This document shows positions 6,389-13,000 of a stretch of DNA of 49,471 nt, piece after piece (the first letter of the stretch is position 1; the number at the start of each line of letters is the position of its first letter). Source of the stretch: Flavobacteriales bacterium (lineage in GTDB: Bacteria; Bacteroidota; Bacteroidia; Flavobacteriales; UBA7312). The notes beneath the pieces were generated by a model, which worked only from the letters and a program-made list of their open reading frames with translations, was not told the origin of the DNA and ran no database searches. A program made the translations under genes and the position numbers. Location of the stretch: positions 1 through 49,471 of the forward strand of contig JAQWJZ010000009.1 in the NCBI GenBank assembly GCA_029248105.1. Reading direction: 5' to 3'.

Positions 6389-6808
6389 ATGAAAGATAGA
6401 AAACAGTTGATTTTGGCACTTCGCCCAAACATTGAAAGCATTAACAAGGGTCTGAATACCAAAGAAATTGAGGTATTTCAAAACGAGGTTTTACGCCCTA
6501 TATTGAAATTTCAAAACAAACTATTACTTCATTCCTTTATAAACTATGCTAGACAATATAAAGGCGTGTTTTTCAAATTATCAACTCAAGACCAGATGGA
6601 TTATATTCATCAAGCATTACACACCAACCAAAGGTTTAGGAGCAATCTTGCAGGTTTGGTTATAGGCTTATTTACTATTGAAGAGTACCATTATTATAGT
6701 TTGAATTTATCGGCTTTGAATAAGCGTATTATTTCAATGGTAATACAGCGTTTACAAACTCAATTGGAGCAGCTAAATGATGGACTCTCCGTTGAGGTCA
6801 GTCGTTAG
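6389..6808 (+). CDS. Conserved Bacteroidota protein of unknown function
   Basis: 139 residues, all-helical in appearance, no signal peptide or membrane segment. Recognisable phrases are MKDRKQLILALRPNIESI, EVLRPILKFQNKLLL and LNKRIISMVIQRLQTQLEQ. Related flavobacterial proteins are, to my recollection, sometimes labelled glyoxalase, but no glyoxalase metal-binding pattern is visible here, so I do not adopt that name. It follows the GNAT gene by one base. Its 3' end overlaps the convergent DUF2461 gene by 36 bases, an unusually long antisense overlap that could limit simultaneous expression of the two. Confidence 0.75.
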   Translation: MKDRKQLILALRPNIESINKGLNTKEIEVFQNEVLRPILKFQNKLLLHSFINYARQYKGVFFKLSTQDQMDYIHQALHTNQRFRSNLAGLVIGLFTIEEYHYYSLNLSALNKRIISMVIQRLQTQLEQLNDGLSVEVSR

Positions 6809-7444
6809 TACTTCCGACATAAAGTCAACAAAAGGACGAACGTTTTTTAAGGCCGAATTTATACGCTCTGAAAAATCATCCTGACTGCTTTCCAAATCTG
6901 TAAATGGGATACTGAAAATATATTGCTTCTTCCTTATCAAGTCGATATTTGGATGGTTTTTATCGAAATTCTTAGGTGCTGTTTTTAACTCATCTCCTTT
7001 TAGTTCACCCCAAGTGGTTTTAAATTTATCTGCGTTGATTATTGCTCTAAACTCATTGGCAGAAACTTCAAATTCTTTGCGAATTCGCAACAGGTCGTTA
7101 GGCTCAGGCCCCCAAAAGCCACAAGCCAAAAAGCTATTTGAAGGGGCAATATGAAGATAATAGCCTCCACGATAGTTCGGTTTTGTTCTGTGAAATGCCA
7201 TACTAAAGTGGGTTTTATATGGCGTTTTATTCTTTGAAAAACGAACATCCCTATAGATTCGAAACACTTTCCATTTTTCTAAAGAATCGTGAGCATTAAG
7301 GTCGTTAAAAAGGGATTCGCTGAATTGTTTAAACCCTTGCTCTAAGGCTTTAAACTGTGGCTTGTGTTTTTCAAACCACTCTCTATTATTGTTTTTTTCT
7401 AGCTTTTTTAAGAAGTCAAAAATTTGGGTGTCAATTTTTGTCAT
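6773..7444 (-). CDS. DUF2461-family protein
   Basis: 223 residues, cytoplasmic. Family hallmarks are FLKKLEKNNNREWFEKHKPQ at the start, then FRIYRDVRFSKNKTPYKTHF and GGYYLHIAPSNSFLACGFWGPEP. The family (TIGR02453 type) is widespread in bacteria and fungi but has no settled biochemical function. The ATG overlaps the stop of the Fur-type gene (ATGA), so the two are cotranscribed and translationally coupled. That links this unknown to the metal regulator, although whether it serves metal homeostasis is inference only. Confidence 0.88.
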   Translation of the reverse strand: MTKIDTQIFDFLKKLEKNNNREWFEKHKPQFKALEQGFKQFSESLFNDLNAHDSLEKWKVFRIYRDVRFSKNKTPYKTHFSMAFHRTKPNYRGGYYLHIAPSNSFLACGFWGPEPNDLLRIRKEFEVSANEFRAIINADKFKTTWGELKGDELKTAPKNFDKNHPNIDLIRKKQYIFSIPFTDLESSQDDFSERINSALKNVRPFVDFMSEVLTTDLNGESII

Positions 7445-7827
7445 GCGTTACATTTTTTACAGACTCCGTACACATTCAAATCGCTATGCTCTATAATATA
7501 CCCAGGTAGGTTTAACTCCTTCATTTGATTTTCTACACACAAAGATTCCTTACATTTTGAGCAGTGAAAATGAAGGTGTTCGTGTTGATGCTTATGTTCG
7601 TCACATTCGTCCTTGCACAAAGCGTATTTTTTGCCCTTGGAATGAAGAATTTCATGCATTATTCCCTTTTCCTTAAACAGTTTTAGCGTTCGATAAAGAG
7701 TAATCCTATCAAAATCATTAAGCTGACTTTCAATCTCCTTTAGAGACAAGGCGCTTTCAGAAGTAGTAAATAACTTTAATACCTCTAGTCTAAATGGCGT
7801 TTTACGTATTTGATTTTTTTCCAACAT
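7441..7827 (-). CDS. Fur-family metal-responsive repressor, probably Zur-like
   Basis: 128 residues from ATG 7827; the open frame extends further upstream but that part reads through the operator. The N-terminal winged helix (KTPFRLEVLKLFTTSESALS, then DRITLYRTLKLFKEKGIMHE) binds DNA. The dimer half carries a His-rich loop HKHQHEHLHFH and two CxxC pairs (CSKC and a C-terminal CKKC) forming the structural zinc site. Adjacent and divergent is a TonB receptor with two palindromic operators over its promoter, and a His/Cys-rich lipoprotein follows it. This context favours zinc over iron. Operator 1 also lies just upstream of this gene's own start, which suggests autoregulation. Confidence 0.88.
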   Translation of the reverse strand: MLEKNQIRKTPFRLEVLKLFTTSESALSLKEIESQLNDFDRITLYRTLKLFKEKGIMHEILHSKGKKYALCKDECDEHKHQHEHLHFHCSKCKESLCVENQMKELNLPGYIIEHSDLNVYGVCKKCNA

Positions 7828-7833
7828 AATTAA

Positions 7834-7848
7834 TGCAACATTGTTGCG
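7834..7848. promoter_or_regulatory. Operator 1 of the Fur/Zur-type repressor
   Basis: TGCAACATTGTTGCG contains the perfect 13-base palindrome GCAACATTGTTGC (7835-7847). It lies between the repressor gene (ATG ends 7827) and the receptor gene. Twelve of 15 bases recur in operator 2. The TTG at 7841-7843 sits near the spot expected for the receptor promoter's -33 element. Confidence 0.7.
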
Positions 7849-7865
7849 CAAACTAAAAAACACAC

Positions 7866-7873
7866 TATATTTG
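7866..7873 (+). promoter_or_regulatory. Putative -7 promoter box (TATATTTG) for the TonB receptor
   Basis: TATATTTG matches TAnnTTTG and overlaps the left edge of operator 2 at 7872, so a bound repressor would block RNA polymerase. It ends 18 bases before the ATG at 7892. Confidence 0.6.
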
Positions 7874-7886
7874 CAATGCTGTTGCG
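7872..7886. promoter_or_regulatory. Operator 2 of the Fur/Zur-type repressor
   Basis: TGCAATGCTGTTGCG repeats operator 1 (TGCAACATTGTTGCG) at 12 of 15 positions, differing only in the three central-left bases. It is 38 bases downstream of operator 1 and five bases upstream of the receptor ATG. Confidence 0.65.
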
Positions 7887-7891
7887 AAAAT

Positions 7892-10081
7892 ATGAAAAAA
7901 ATAGCTTTATTCGTCTCACTACTTTTAGTCTGTACTAACACTTTTGCTCAATTAAAGGGTATTGTTTTAGATGCTGATGGGGCTGCTATTTCTACGGCTG
8001 ATGTTTTTTTCGTTTTCCTAGGAGTTGCACTTCAAACCGATGCCGATGGTCAATTTAATCTGGAGTCTACATTACCTACTAGTTCAAAAATTATTATCAG
8101 CAAAGAAGGTTTTAAAACTCAATCTTTTAATACAAATTTGGAGGACGAATACGTTACACTAAAATTAGAAAAGTTACATATTGAAATCAATGAGGTTGAA
8201 GTTTCAGCCATTAATCACCAATTATCTTCCAATCAGTCTATCAATCTTCAATCTAAAAGTTTGAGTACTATAAACGATAACTCATCGTCTTTAATTGAAA
8301 GCTTAAGTCATATTTCGGGTGTTGAGGAATTATCTACTGGTATTGGGATTAACAAAGTTGTTGTTCGAGGGCTTTCGGGTATGCGAGTAGTTACCTATTT
8401 AAATGGTGCACGTATAGAAAATCAGCAATGGAGCGGTGACCACGGTCTCGGTTTTACAGATTTAGGAATAGGGAAAGTAGAGTTGGTTAAAGGACCTGCT
8501 TCTATCATGTTTGGTGCGGATGCTTTGGGCGGTGCACTTTATTTTGTAGACGATAGTTACGTGTCATCTGGTCAGTCGGAGTTTAAATTGGTGTCGAATT
8601 TTGAATCTTCAATGATGCGTTCCAACAATCAACTTGTTGCCAAGTGGGCAAAGAATAACTTTAGAATGAATACCTATGCTGAATACGGCTCAGCGGCAGA
8701 CTACAGATTGCCTCAAGGCAAGTACTTATTCAATTCTCGTTTTTCAAATTTAGCCTTTAAAACGGCAATAGGCTATAGCAAAAATAAATGGCTGATGAAT
8801 GTGCGATATCAGTACAACTACAATATATCTGGTATTCCTGCACATTCGCATGATGCTGAGCCTACATTAAATCAATTATCTTCTTCTTCTCAAGAACGTT
8901 ATCCTACTCGCCCTACTCAGTTTGCGACTAATCATTTATTGCTTTTCCAGAACACGTTTTTCATTAATTCATCTAGTTTAAAAGTAGATTTAATCAATTC
9001 GAATAATCGACTTGAAGAGTTTGAAGCCTGGACGGTAGCCGAGATGGATGCAGTGCTCAACTCCAGTCAAATAAACACCACCTTTTCCAAACCGTTTAAT
9101 ACGCATTTAACGTGGACTGTTGGTAACCAAAACGCCTTCCAAACCAATAAAAATAAACCAGCACGTTCAGAGTTATTACCCGATGCTGAAATTAGAGATT
9201 TTGGTGTTTTTTCAAATATAGATTATCATAAAAACAATTGGTCAATGCTATTTGGAATTCGATTCGACAATAGGCTAGTTGAAACAATTTCTCAATCCTA
9301 TTCTAACGATTTTAATGCGCTAAGTAGCTCGTTTGGCGTTTCCAAAAGTTGGGACGGACACCGTATTAGATTGACTTATTCATCGGCTTTTAGAACACCA
9401 CACTTTTCGGAGTTATTGGCCAATGGACCTCATCACGGAACAAAACGTTATGAAATAGGCGATCGCAACTTGAAAGAAGAAAAAGGTAATCAAATCGATG
9501 CTACTTACGAGTGGTCTAACGAACATTTAGGGTTAATTATAAATCCGTTTTATCATCAAATCAATGATTTTATTGTCTTAAATCCACAGGACTCTTTAAT
9601 AAGCGGTATGCCTGTTTTTGCATACCAACAGGAAGAAAGTGTTAATCTAAAGGGTGTTGAAATGAGCTTGCATTATCATCCTCATTTTTTACATCAGCTT
9701 CATTTCGAAGAAAATATATCTATTATAGAAGGTCGAAATTCTGACAATCAGTTTTTGCCTCTTATGCCAGCCAACAAATTCCAAAGCAAATTACGTTATT
9801 ATTTGACTAAAGAAAACAAGTACAGATGCAAGGAGATTTCTTTGGACCATGTTTATTATGCATCGCAGAATAATGTTGCCTTAAACGAAACACCTTCAGA
9901 GGCTTACAGCTTAATTAACACGGCTCTACATTTTGAGACAAAAAATAAAAATTTAAATCTGTCAATAGGAGTTAAAAATGTGCTAAATCAATCGTACATA
10001 CCTCATTTGTCAAGATTAAAAAGTTACGAAATTCCTAGTGTAGGACGTTCGTATTATTTCAAATTATGTTTAACACTTTAA
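7892..10081 (+). CDS. TonB-dependent outer-membrane receptor, probably for zinc or a zinc chelate
   Basis: 729 residues from ATG 7892; a longer frame begins at 7841 but runs through the operator. The signal peptide MKKIALFVSLLLVCTNTFAQ is followed by a CarboxypepD_reg-like domain (LKGIVLDADGAAIS to about residue 90), a plug domain (ESLSHISGVEELS, VVVRGLSGMRV, VELVKGPASIMFGADALGG) and a 22-strand barrel ending SYYFKLCLTL with the terminal aromatic pattern. It imports a metal or chelate using TonB energy. Its promoter carries two operators of the adjacent Fur/Zur-type repressor, and a His-rich lipoprotein follows six bases later. It is not SusC-length (about 1000) and no SusD partner is present. 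Confidence 0.92.
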   Translation: MKKIALFVSLLLVCTNTFAQLKGIVLDADGAAISTADVFFVFLGVALQTDADGQFNLESTLPTSSKIIISKEGFKTQSFNTNLEDEYVTLKLEKLHIEINEVEVSAINHQLSSNQSINLQSKSLSTINDNSSSLIESLSHISGVEELSTGIGINKVVVRGLSGMRVVTYLNGARIENQQWSGDHGLGFTDLGIGKVELVKGPASIMFGADALGGALYFVDDSYVSSGQSEFKLVSNFESSMMRSNNQLVAKWAKNNFRMNTYAEYGSAADYRLPQGKYLFNSRFSNLAFKTAIGYSKNKWLMNVRYQYNYNISGIPAHSHDAEPTLNQLSSSSQERYPTRPTQFATNHLLLFQNTFFINSSSLKVDLINSNNRLEEFEAWTVAEMDAVLNSSQINTTFSKPFNTHLTWTVGNQNAFQTNKNKPARSELLPDAEIRDFGVFSNIDYHKNNWSMLFGIRFDNRLVETISQSYSNDFNALSSSFGVSKSWDGHRIRLTYSSAFRTPHFSELLANGPHHGTKRYEIGDRNLKEEKGNQIDATYEWSNEHLGLIINPFYHQINDFIVLNPQDSLISGMPVFAYQQEESVNLKGVEMSLHYHPHFLHQLHFEENISIIEGRNSDNQFLPLMPANKFQSKLRYYLTKENKYRCKEISLDHVYYASQNNVALNETPSEAYSLINTALHFETKNKNLNLSIGVKNVLNQSYIPHLSRLKSYEIPSVGRSYYFKLCLTL

Positions 10082-10087
10082 AAAAAA

Positions 10088-10405
10088 ATGATGAAAAAAT
10101 TATTGTTTATACCAGCTCTAGCTTTATTCTTGTTTTCTTGCTCAGACAGTGACGAATGTCATGAATGTCATATTGCATTTGACAATGTTGATGGAACTGA
10201 AACTATGTGGGAAATTCAAGCACCTTCTGGTGATGATGAGTTTTGCGGATCAGAACTAGAAACAGTTGAGGACCCAAGCTATATGCACAACGTCTCAGCG
10301 CCTCTTATTTCTACCGATGGAAATGACACCTTACAAGCAGGTGAATACGGATCATCAAACGGTTATGAAATTCATTGTGAAGAACACGCTGATCACGACC
10401 ACTAA
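10088..10405 (+). CDS. His/Cys/acid-rich lipoprotein, candidate metal-capture partner of the receptor
   Basis: 105 residues (or 104 from the second ATG). The lipoprotein signal is MMKKLLFIPALALFLFSC, and the residues after the lipid Cys, SDSDE, are acidic like Bacteroidota surface-export signals. Potential metal ligands cluster at both ends: ECHECH near the N-terminus and IHCEEHADHDH at the C-terminus, with one more Cys in the middle. No known domain was recognised. Position in the Fur/Zur-type controlled unit and composition suggest that it binds zinc at the cell surface and hands it to the receptor. That role is inference; the sequence shows only the lipobox and the ligand-rich ends. Confidence 0.8.
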   Translation: MMKKLLFIPALALFLFSCSDSDECHECHIAFDNVDGTETMWEIQAPSGDDEFCGSELETVEDPSYMHNVSAPLISTDGNDTLQAGEYGSSNGYEIHCEEHADHDH

Positions 10406-10431: not shown

Positions 10432-10468
10432 AAAGACTTGTTTTTACGAAAACAAGTCTTTTTTTTTT
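10432..10468 (+). terminator. Rho-independent terminator of the receptor-lipoprotein unit
   Basis: Perfect 13-base stem AAAGACTTGTTTT / AAAACAAGTCTTT with loop TACG (10445-10448), running into a long T tract up to 10468. Confidence 0.92.
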
Positions 10469-10516: not shown

Positions 10517-13000
10517 ATGAAAACTAACTTAACAATTTTAATACTTTTCATTAGTACATTGGTATATGCCCAACCTCCTGGCATGGGTGGCTTTGGCGGA
10601 AAAAATGCCTCTCTTCATAATGGACAAATAAGCGGTAGATTGGTAGATTCTAAATCCGGCGATGAATTAGCTTTTGCTAATGTGCGTCTTTTCAGAAAGA
10701 ACGATATTCTGATGGAAGGAACTATAACGGACGAGAAAGGAGCTTTTCAATTCAACAAGTTGGGGTTAGCCGACTATTATTTTTTAGTCAATTATATTGG
10801 TTATGAAGAGAAAAGAGTAGAGGTTTCTTTGAACAAAAACAAAACCTTTATATACCTTAAAAAGGTAAAAGTAGAACCGGGCGCTGTTAATCTCAAAGAA
10901 GTGTCTATTAATGAGGACAGACCCGTTTATGAAAGTAAGATGGAGAAAATCGTTTACAATGCTGAAAACGATTTGAACGAAGGACTTGATGACGCAACGG
11001 ATGTTTTGCGTAAGACACCTTTACTATCTGTTGATTTGGAAGGCAATGTAAACCTTAGAGGGTCTTCCAATATTAAGTTTTTAGTTAACGGTAAAGAGTC
11101 TACTTTCTTTTCAGGCTCGGCGGCGGACGCCCTACAAATGATACCTGCCGAACAAGTTAAAAGCGTTGAGGTCATTACTAGCCCTACCGCTAAATACGAT
11201 GGTGAAGGCGGTTCAGGGATTATAAATATTATCACACAGCAAAAACAAATTTCAGGCTTTAAAAGCACTATAAATGGCTCGGTAGGTACTCGTGTAAATA
11301 AGCAGTCTTTAGACCTAAATTATGGAAAAGGGAAGTTTGGTGTTTCTGTACGAGGTAGAGTCCGTTATGGATGGCCACTTTCAGGAGAGCAGACTTATCA
11401 CCGATTTAATTATGCCGACTCTACTACACTAACAAAAAACGCCCAAACAAAAGGGCAATGGATAGGCTTTGGTGGTACATCAGAAATGTATTATGATATC
11501 AACCCCTACAACAGTATTGTGACTAGTTTTCAAATGCGAGGTAATCGACAAACCAATCAAGAATGGGCGGACGATTATTTATATTCGTCTATACTTTCAG
11601 ATAACTTCATTGAAGAACTAGCTTATCAGATTAACGATACCGTAAGGTATACGGACTCTAAAAATCTGAGTTTAGGCTACGAATGGACCACCGATTATGT
11701 CAAGCAATTCAGTGACCATGAGGACCGAGAATTGAGAATTGCATTTCAGTTAGGTGGCGATGTATCGGATCAAGATAATTACGTTTATCAAGGCTATGTT
11801 TTTGGCAGGCCCACCGATACTATTGTTAACAAAAACGATGGAAGCCCACTGACATATACCTATCAATTGGACTATACTCACCCTGTAAAAGACAAACACA
11901 CCATAGAGGTGGGAGCAAAATACGTCAACAGAAATTTGTTGAACAATTACAATACAGAAAACGCAAATCCTATTATTTTTCAGCCCTTAGAGCAATTCGA
12001 TTACATTCAAAATGTAGCCGCCTTATACCTTTCAACAAAGTGGCAATTAAGCAAAGAGTGGGGAGCTGTAGTAGGACTGAGAGCTGAAAATACACTCATC
12101 AAAGGTCAGTGGAATTCTAAACAAAACGACGAATGGGTTCAAAATGACAATGATCCTTTTGAAAATGAATACACCACCTTATTGCCAAGCTTCATTTTAT
12201 CCAAAAAGATAGATATGATGAAGTCGCTTAAGGCAAGTTATAGTAAACGAATATACCGACCAGGGATGAGGTATATCAACCCAAATATTTCTTATACAGA
12301 TACGCTTTCTTTGTCAGAAGGTAATCCGCTTTTAAAACCTGAAATTACGCATCAATTAGAAGTAGGCTATAATAGCTTTGCTAGAAAATACAAAGGCAGC
12401 TACTATATCTTTGCTAAACAAACCTACGACCTCATAGAGTCTAACGTTAGTTTGTTAGGAGATTCTACCGTAACTTCTTATAATAACATTGGAGAAAATT
12501 TATCTATCGGCTTCAACTACTACGGTTCTATTAAGTTGGGTGATGCTAACTTGAGAGCAGGTTTTAACCTTTACACTTATCAGACTACTTCGGATGATTT
12601 GGGAAGAGTATTATTCAATTGGAATATGGGCGGTAATTACGATATAGGCAAGGGCTATAAAGCCGAAACCTTTGGTTTTTTTCGACCACCTAATCAAACG
12701 GCACAAGGTTATGTGCCAGGATTCTCTATGTTTTCTTTTGGCTTTAAGAAAGACTTTAAAAACAAAAAAGGATCCATCGGTTTACGTTTTGTTGAGCCAT
12801 TCAAGAAGTACAAATCTTTTAAAACAGAGCTAGAAGGCAATGACTTTTATATTTATAGTAACAGAAATACTGTTTTTAGATCCATTGGTATTAGCTTTAA
12901 ATATACTATCGGTGAATTGAAGTTTGATGTTATAAAAGACCGTACTAATATCCGTAATGATGATATCAAAGACGGCGGCGGTGGCGGCGGTGAATTCTAA
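10517..13000 (+). CDS. Outer-membrane beta-barrel protein with CarboxypepD_reg-like and plug-like domains
   Basis: 827 residues from ATG 10517. The signal peptide ends near LVYAQ and is followed by a Gly/Met-rich stretch PPGMGGFGGKN. Next is a CarboxypepD_reg-like domain (ISGRLVDSKSGDELAFANV, about residues 29-110), then a plug-like domain (DATDVLRKTPLLSVDLEGNV, LRGSSNIKFLVNGKES, VEVITSPTAKYDGEGGSGI), and a long barrel of the OMP_b-brl_3 type. The tail DGGGGGGEF is low-complexity and ends with a phenylalanine. This family resembles TonB receptors, but its substrate is generally unknown. It is flanked by terminators on both sides, so it is monocistronic. Confidence 0.88.
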   Translation: MKTNLTILILFISTLVYAQPPGMGGFGGKNASLHNGQISGRLVDSKSGDELAFANVRLFRKNDILMEGTITDEKGAFQFNKLGLADYYFLVNYIGYEEKRVEVSLNKNKTFIYLKKVKVEPGAVNLKEVSINEDRPVYESKMEKIVYNAENDLNEGLDDATDVLRKTPLLSVDLEGNVNLRGSSNIKFLVNGKESTFFSGSAADALQMIPAEQVKSVEVITSPTAKYDGEGGSGIINIITQQKQISGFKSTINGSVGTRVNKQSLDLNYGKGKFGVSVRGRVRYGWPLSGEQTYHRFNYADSTTLTKNAQTKGQWIGFGGTSEMYYDINPYNSIVTSFQMRGNRQTNQEWADDYLYSSILSDNFIEELAYQINDTVRYTDSKNLSLGYEWTTDYVKQFSDHEDRELRIAFQLGGDVSDQDNYVYQGYVFGRPTDTIVNKNDGSPLTYTYQLDYTHPVKDKHTIEVGAKYVNRNLLNNYNTENANPIIFQPLEQFDYIQNVAALYLSTKWQLSKEWGAVVGLRAENTLIKGQWNSKQNDEWVQNDNDPFENEYTTLLPSFILSKKIDMMKSLKASYSKRIYRPGMRYINPNISYTDTLSLSEGNPLLKPEITHQLEVGYNSFARKYKGSYYIFAKQTYDLIESNVSLLGDSTVTSYNNIGENLSIGFNYYGSIKLGDANLRAGFNLYTYQTTSDDLGRVLFNWNMGGNYDIGKGYKAETFGFFRPPNQTAQGYVPGFSMFSFGFKKDFKNKKGSIGLRFVEPFKKYKSFKTELEGNDFYIYSNRNTVFRSIGISFKYTIGELKFDVIKDRTNIRNDDIKDGGGGGGEF

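Follow-up and report, generated by a model that had tools for sequence, protein, structure and literature searches.

A predicted Zur-repressed zinc-acquisition operon pairing a ZnuD-like receptor with a small Cys/His lipoprotein in a Flavobacteriales genome

TonB receptors of Bacteroidetes are known in pairs with surface lipoproteins, among them BtuB/BtuG, HmuR/HmuY and SusC/SusD. XusA/XusB is cited as another such pair in PMC12574912. Outer-membrane zinc uptake is little described in Bacteroidota, and the closest described parts come from other bacteria, namely the receptor ZnuD of Neisseria meningitidis (PMC4557270) and the repressor Zur of Escherichia coli (PDB entry 4mtd). Here, a 49,471-nucleotide stretch from a Flavobacteriales bacterium (GenBank assembly GCA_029248105.1, contig JAQWJZ010000009.1, positions 1 to 49,471; hereafter the window) was analysed for a locus that encodes a Zur-type repressor, a ZnuD-like TonB-dependent receptor and a small Cys/His lipoprotein. 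At a probability of roughly two in three, we read it as a Zur-repressed zinc-acquisition operon, in which the lipoprotein, likely surface-exposed, would bind zinc and pass it to the receptor. The features of the locus are listed below in window coordinates.

7441-7827, minus strand: zur, a 128-amino-acid (aa) Fur-family repressor of Zur type (PF01475, 4mtd match, Zur residues)
7834-7848, no strand: Zur-box 1, TGCAACATTGTTGCG, over the receptor -33 region and 6 bp upstream of the zur ATG
7866-7873, plus strand: TATATTTG, a Bacteroidetes-type -7 element (TAnnTTTG), recognised by sequence
7872-7886, no strand: Zur-box 2, TGCAATGCTGTTGCG, with a two-base overlap with the -7 element
7892-10081, plus strand: ZnuD-like TonB-dependent receptor of 729 aa, with CarboxypepD_reg N-terminus, plug and barrel
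9671-9703, plus strand: HYHPHxxHxxH codons within the receptor gene, a likely periplasmic-turn His cluster
10088-10405, plus strand: Cys/His lipoprotein of 105 aa, lipid Cys18
10432-10461, plus strand: intrinsic terminator at the end of the receptor-lipoprotein operon, with a 13-bp stem, a 4-nt loop and a T-run
6773-7444, minus strand: DUF2461 gene (PF09365, E 9.6e-68), not a conserved part of the module

Two 15-bp sites between zur and the receptor had been described in the first-pass annotation, a model's reading of the letters and open reading frames, and both were recovered as described: they are identical at 12 of 15 positions, start 38 bp apart, and lie with the first over the -33 region of the receptor promoter and the second overlapping its -7 box. 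A TTG at 7844-7846, within box 1, is placed 19 nt upstream of the -7 element. The lipoprotein gene starts 6 bp past the receptor stop, and because of this short gap and the good terminator behind the lipoprotein gene, the two look like one transcript.

In a PDB search with the receptor, ZnuD came first (4.6e-16), ahead of the heme receptor PhuR (7e-12). Residues D183/H184 and H514 align with D99/H100 and H499 of ZnuD, where D99 is numbered from the structure chain and the paper prints D90/H100/E340/H499 (PMC4557270). The positions aligned to these three of the four high-affinity zinc ligands were invariant in 41/41 related receptors, and the D-H pair was missing from PhuR in the same alignment. 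The invariant E376 is a candidate for E340, the fourth high-affinity ligand, though it is not aligned to it. The PAHSH loop matches the AHSH loop of ZnuD, with its first His kept in 39/41 related receptors. A zinc-type receptor is supported by this best solved relative and by the invariance of the three ligand equivalents. The window receptor differs from ZnuD in an extra CarboxypepD_reg N-terminus, in the His cluster HYHPHFLHQLHFE (HYHPHxxHxxHxE) and in the lipoprotein gene downstream. The cluster was found in all 39 receptors paired with the lipoprotein and in neither of the 2 aligned receptors adjoining other lipoproteins. It aligns to FKPTPRYRI of ZnuD and, judging by the barrel pattern, would be located on the exit side, in a turn facing the periplasm.

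The repressor matches PF01475 at 33.8 bits (cut-off 23.1), and among solved structures it is closest to E. coli Zur (4mtd, E 2e-7). The regulatory residues H77, C88 and H96 (E. coli numbering) and the four structural Cys (C103/C106/C143/C146) are shared with that protein, while E111, its fourth regulatory ligand, falls in an alignment gap. The Fur/Zur type assigned earlier is supported by these matches. Most neighbouring repressor homologues keep H77, C88, H96 and the structural Cys, with H96 varying most. Compared to E. coli Zur the protein is shorter, with a His-rich loop, HKHQHEHLHFHC, and a predicted operator of YGCAAC-N3-GTTGCR. The best-scoring model was the NCBIfam Zur equivalog, with 45.4 bits against a cut-off of 167, and because this cut-off was not reached the repressor is classed as Zur-type, short of a certified equivalog. 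Only one further Fur-family protein is encoded in the genome, a separate canonical Fur (C30), and it is without H77, C88 and H96. Because the Zur residues are present here and missing from the genome's own Fur, and because of the regulon described below, zinc is the likely signal; zinc as the metal, also the choice of the first-pass annotation, is further supported by the ZnuD ligand set. The repressor gene itself lies outside the interval 7834-10405 to which that annotation had assigned the module.

To map the boxes, a degenerate pattern, YGCAAC-N3-GTTGCR, was written from the two window sites and searched in the 1.74-Mb genome (99% complete). Exact matches were found at four places: the two window boxes, one before zigA and one before merC, on another contig. 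The chance expectation was 0.16 strand hits in 1.74 Mb (P(>=4) ~2e-5, with two of the four places having defined the pattern), and a control search with the reversed pattern gave 0 matches in the genome. In 148 relatives the exact pattern gave 85 strand hits vs 11 for the reversed control. Within the window's own family, exact boxes occur at eleven distinct places, each preceding zur/receptor, zigA, merC or a His-rich MacB-like ABC transporter; seven of these places come from other members, all before zur/receptor, merC or ABC genes. A TAnnTTTG element overlaps or directly trails the box at all three promoters of the genome (receptor, zigA and merC). Against the ZigA model NF038288, the box-linked CobW GTPase scored E 2.7e-168 and 559.9 bits, slightly under the equivalog cut-off of 600; its gene stands behind a Zur-type box and is counted with the regulon and not with the operon of the window. 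A random scatter of the motif, or its occurrence before iron genes only, had been named in advance as counting against the zinc reading, and neither was seen, the boxes preceding zigA and merC. The description of the module as self-contained has to be given up, as, judged by box position, at least two more promoters, on a different contig, come under the same control. The boxes are best taken as operator-like sites, predicted to be bound by Zur, of a putative regulon of receptor, zigA and merC, with the ABC genes added in the family.

Other sites in the genome with one or two mismatches, among those examined, all lay within reading frames. Such low-mismatch boxes, one of them in a copper ATPase gene, were dismissed as chance, being intragenic, and some exact boxes inside coding genes of other families (L127, L129, L130, L133) were also treated as chance.

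Adjoining zigA are a split MacB-like ABC transporter (an ATPase and an FtsX permease that has an HDHDHD-rich loop) and a protein of 145 aa (L029:1944-4322). The MacB-like ABC genes of this neighbourhood are box-preceded in relatives L136 and L137. In its split ATPase and FtsX/MacB permease, its His-rich loop and its position near boxes, the transporter resembles the zinc-regulated MacB-type system PA4063-PA4066/ZrgABCDE (PMC11481552), a likeness by Pfam domains only; here there is no box directly upstream. The MerC-domain protein (L029:6733-7131 and neighbours) often accompanies zur in these genomes and possibly serves an inner-membrane zinc step. Two ZIP genes were found in the genome. Proteins of 100-117 aa with His and CxxC were seen near boxes or receptors (L131:4095-4439, L132:3394-3744, L204:8082-8381, L216:1363-1698), and none of the three tested matched a Pfam family above its cut-off.

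The lipoprotein has a mature length of ~88 residues. As reported in the first-pass annotation, it follows the receptor and carries the clusters ECHECH and HCEEHADHDH, both read in the translation of 10088-10405; its C-terminus bears HC-EEH and HDHDH tails. Across 25 homologues, lipid Cys18, C24, C27, H28, C53, L57, E61 and C97 are invariant in the mature protein, and H96 is nearly so. No credible match was obtained with Pfam for any of the 25 members or with the lipoprotein in a PDB sequence search, and a fold search with its structure model returned nothing at E below 0.001. In this model (pLDDT 80, from a shallow four-sequence input) the CxxCH is located in a strand at 24-32 and C97 in another strand, with C53 preceding a helix. 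Positions +2 to +6 past the lipid Cys read SDSDE, by eye resembling SDDFE and SDDDD, which at these positions are functional surface-export signals in Bacteroidetes (PMC5080379), and this likeness suggests a surface location. The ligands and the genomic context point to zinc binding.

Homologues of the lipoprotein were then sought beside TonB receptors, the check that had been proposed for it. In 42 loci, a CxxCH lipoprotein was found directly behind a receptor and in the same orientation (41 by computation, L203 by eye), with gaps of about -15 to 102 nt. This receptor-linked set includes shorter versions of 69-73 aa in other families of the class, and two of the short-version loci (L203, L206) also have a Zur-like gene alongside. 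None of the 13 related sequences without CxxCH adjoins a receptor; most of them keep the Cys but have nearly no His, and in solitary relatives the CxxC is retained with the H replaced by other residues. Of five His-type copies for which no receptor is visible, two form the C-terminal domain of a larger lipoprotein, two represent a divergent second type and one is truncated by the end of its contig. CxxCH and receptor adjacency are thus associated at 41/0 against 5/13 (Fisher 2e-9, uncorrected for shared ancestry); many of the relatives appear to be metagenome-assembled, and the counts lack phylogenetic independence. Across the order (398 genomes), the 37 genomes with HYHPHxxHxxH in the receptor are the same 37 that have a full-length His-type lipoprotein, a count from which weaker or divergent matches were excluded, as was G240, where the copy begins at the edge of a contig. 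With no Pfam family or solved relative, and with its place behind the receptor kept in relatives, the lipoprotein is supported as an undescribed partner, as had been supposed, and as a conserved one.

Several observations were made alongside these counts. The Cys/His domain is also found as the C-terminal part of larger solitary lipoproteins (L191:4925-5590, L200:4309-5214). Next to some related receptors and Zur, under the same box, stand other lipoproteins, namely an unknown 186-aa protein (L128:1033-1590) and a DUF4625 protein that has a stretch rich in His and Asp (L135:4057-4854), as if the lipoprotein partner were exchangeable. In two loci, the receptor gene is split over two or three frames, by frameshifts or assembly errors, ahead of an intact lipoprotein gene (L101:3034-5257, L118:2892-5205).

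The mechanism proposed from these sequences is as follows. When zinc is plentiful, zinc-loaded Zur would occupy both boxes and block the receptor promoter, and through box 1 it probably represses its own promoter too. When zinc is scarce, Zur would release the boxes, so that a single mRNA yields both the ZnuD-like receptor and the lipoprotein. Export most likely brings the lipoprotein to the external side of the outer membrane, where it would take up zinc via its CxxCH, C and HC cluster and its His tail, and may hand it over directly to the receptor. The receptor would move zinc inward with TonB energy, through the D-H/H site to the His cluster on the exit side. The cytoplasmic zinc GTPase ZigA, the MerC-domain protein and, in relatives, the His-rich MacB-like ABC transporter are predicted to share the regulon, and ZigA and the other members would distribute or conserve zinc inside the cell.

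A number of points weigh against this reading. There is no box just upstream of the genome's own ABC genes, and the four conserved Cys of the lipoprotein could be disulfides. In the NCBIfam ranking of the receptor, heme receptors stand first and ZnuD third, all far under cut-off: the TonB-hemin profile scored 121.5 bits (3.6e-35), above the 95.2 bits of ZnuD NF038289, and because the ZnuD cut-off of 950 was not reached, the receptor is filed as ZnuD-like and not as ZnuD. The structure model of the receptor was too poor for use or for a fold search (pLDDT 39). In a wider class sample, 5 of the 11 HYHPH-bearing genomes, more distant ones, have no such lipoprotein downstream, and 2 of these 5 have a Zur-like gene beside the receptor. 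Because of these five, the lipoprotein is regarded as an accessory added to the Zur/receptor pair and not as an essential part of it; the HYHPH cluster, a perfect marker within the order, was rejected as an obligate one on the same exceptions.

Four other explanations were considered. The lipoprotein might face the periplasm and act as an acceptor on the exit side, taking zinc from the receptor's periplasmic His cluster on to inner-membrane transport. This would fit the position of HYHPHxxHxxHxE where TonB barrels have a periplasmic turn, as aligned to ZnuD, and its 37/37 co-occurrence with the lipoprotein within the order; another periplasmic carrier is also plausible because no ZnuB-type importer (PF00950) was found in the genome. 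We nevertheless hold an exit-side role to be unlikely, given that SDSDE after the lipid Cys resembles surface-export signals and that the cluster and the lipoprotein are not obligate partners, since the cluster is also present in receptors without the lipoprotein. Less probable still is a structural or gating partner stabilised by disulfides, such as a receptor lid or a metallophore recogniser, with no zinc binding of its own. Lipoprotein lids of SusD type do exist on other TonB receptors, and most His-less relatives hold the four Cys outside a zinc context, so that these Cys may form two disulfides; against such a role, all receptor-linked copies have the His that most solitary ones are missing, and the C-terminus carries HC-EEH and HDHDH tails in addition.

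The top rank of the TonB-hemin profile also raises the idea of a heme uptake pair like HmuR/HmuY, made of a hemoglobin-type receptor and a c-type heme or heme-binding lipoprotein, with CxxCH being the c-heme motif and invariant in receptor-linked copies. However, ZnuD itself was initially misannotated as a heme transporter owing to the same motifs (PMC4557270), the ZnuD zinc ligands are invariant here with the D-H pair missing in PhuR, and the Zur-type box is held in common with zigA. A c-type cytochrome reading of the CxxCH was judged very unlikely, as the site is in a predicted strand and not a helix and solitary relatives have a CxxC without the His. We give the heme pair only the slimmest chance. 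It is hardly more probable that the system serves cobalt, nickel, copper or iron, with a Fur homologue that does not sense zinc. Homology is the basis for naming the metal, COG0523 GTPases as well as MerC proteins form diverse groups, and cobalt can be handled by systems under Zur control (PMC11481552); the Zur residues including C88, the ZigA-level similarity of the GTPase, the ZnuD ligand set and the separate canonical Fur in the genome all argue for zinc.

Of the neighbouring genes, DUF2461 had been counted as coupled to the repressor. Its ATGA overlap with zur is real (7441-7444), but its membership in the module was rejected: no DUF2461 match adjoins zur in any other locus examined, the same genus included. 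A second outer-membrane beta-barrel gene (OMP_b-brl_3, window 10517-13000) comes after the terminator, and its position is kept in the closest relatives (L107, L108, L110).

Each part of the preferred reading, that of Zur-controlled zinc capture by lipoprotein and receptor, is already known on its own: Zur, ZnuD-like receptors and receptor-lipoprotein pairs. What appears to be new is a zinc-type receptor with a dedicated Cys/His lipoprotein, and a Flavobacteriales Zur regulon with this box; in the open-access papers searched, no Bacteroidetes Zur motif or regulon and no zinc-specific receptor/lipoprotein pair was reported. The locus is best seen as a probable zinc counterpart of the known Bacteroidetes receptor/surface-lipoprotein pairs, with which it shares the single operon, a nutrient-limited expression (predicted here) and an export-signal-like N-terminus. 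It differs from them in a lipoprotein of no detectable relation to a known family, with ~88 mature residues, C4/His ligands and a predicted zinc cargo. We put at even odds the further proposal that this lipoprotein founds a family of zinc-capture lipoproteins for ZnuD-like receptors across Bacteroidia, which would have arisen from histidines added to a widespread four-Cys scaffold upon joining a Zur-controlled receptor operon.

For further work the locus provides a Zur box that can be tested (YGCAAC-N3-GTTGCR), a predicted regulon and a ZnuD-like receptor whose new His cluster is likely on the exit side. It also provides a small lipoprotein for which the His-less relatives outside a zinc context serve as natural controls. 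The host is probably marine, judging by related records and their small genomes and not by the window, and the setting is one of small-genome, probably marine bacteria for which zinc is potentially scarce. If the reading is true, the receptor-plus-lipoprotein design, known for sugars, B12, heme and siderophores, would be seen to serve a bare metal ion as well.

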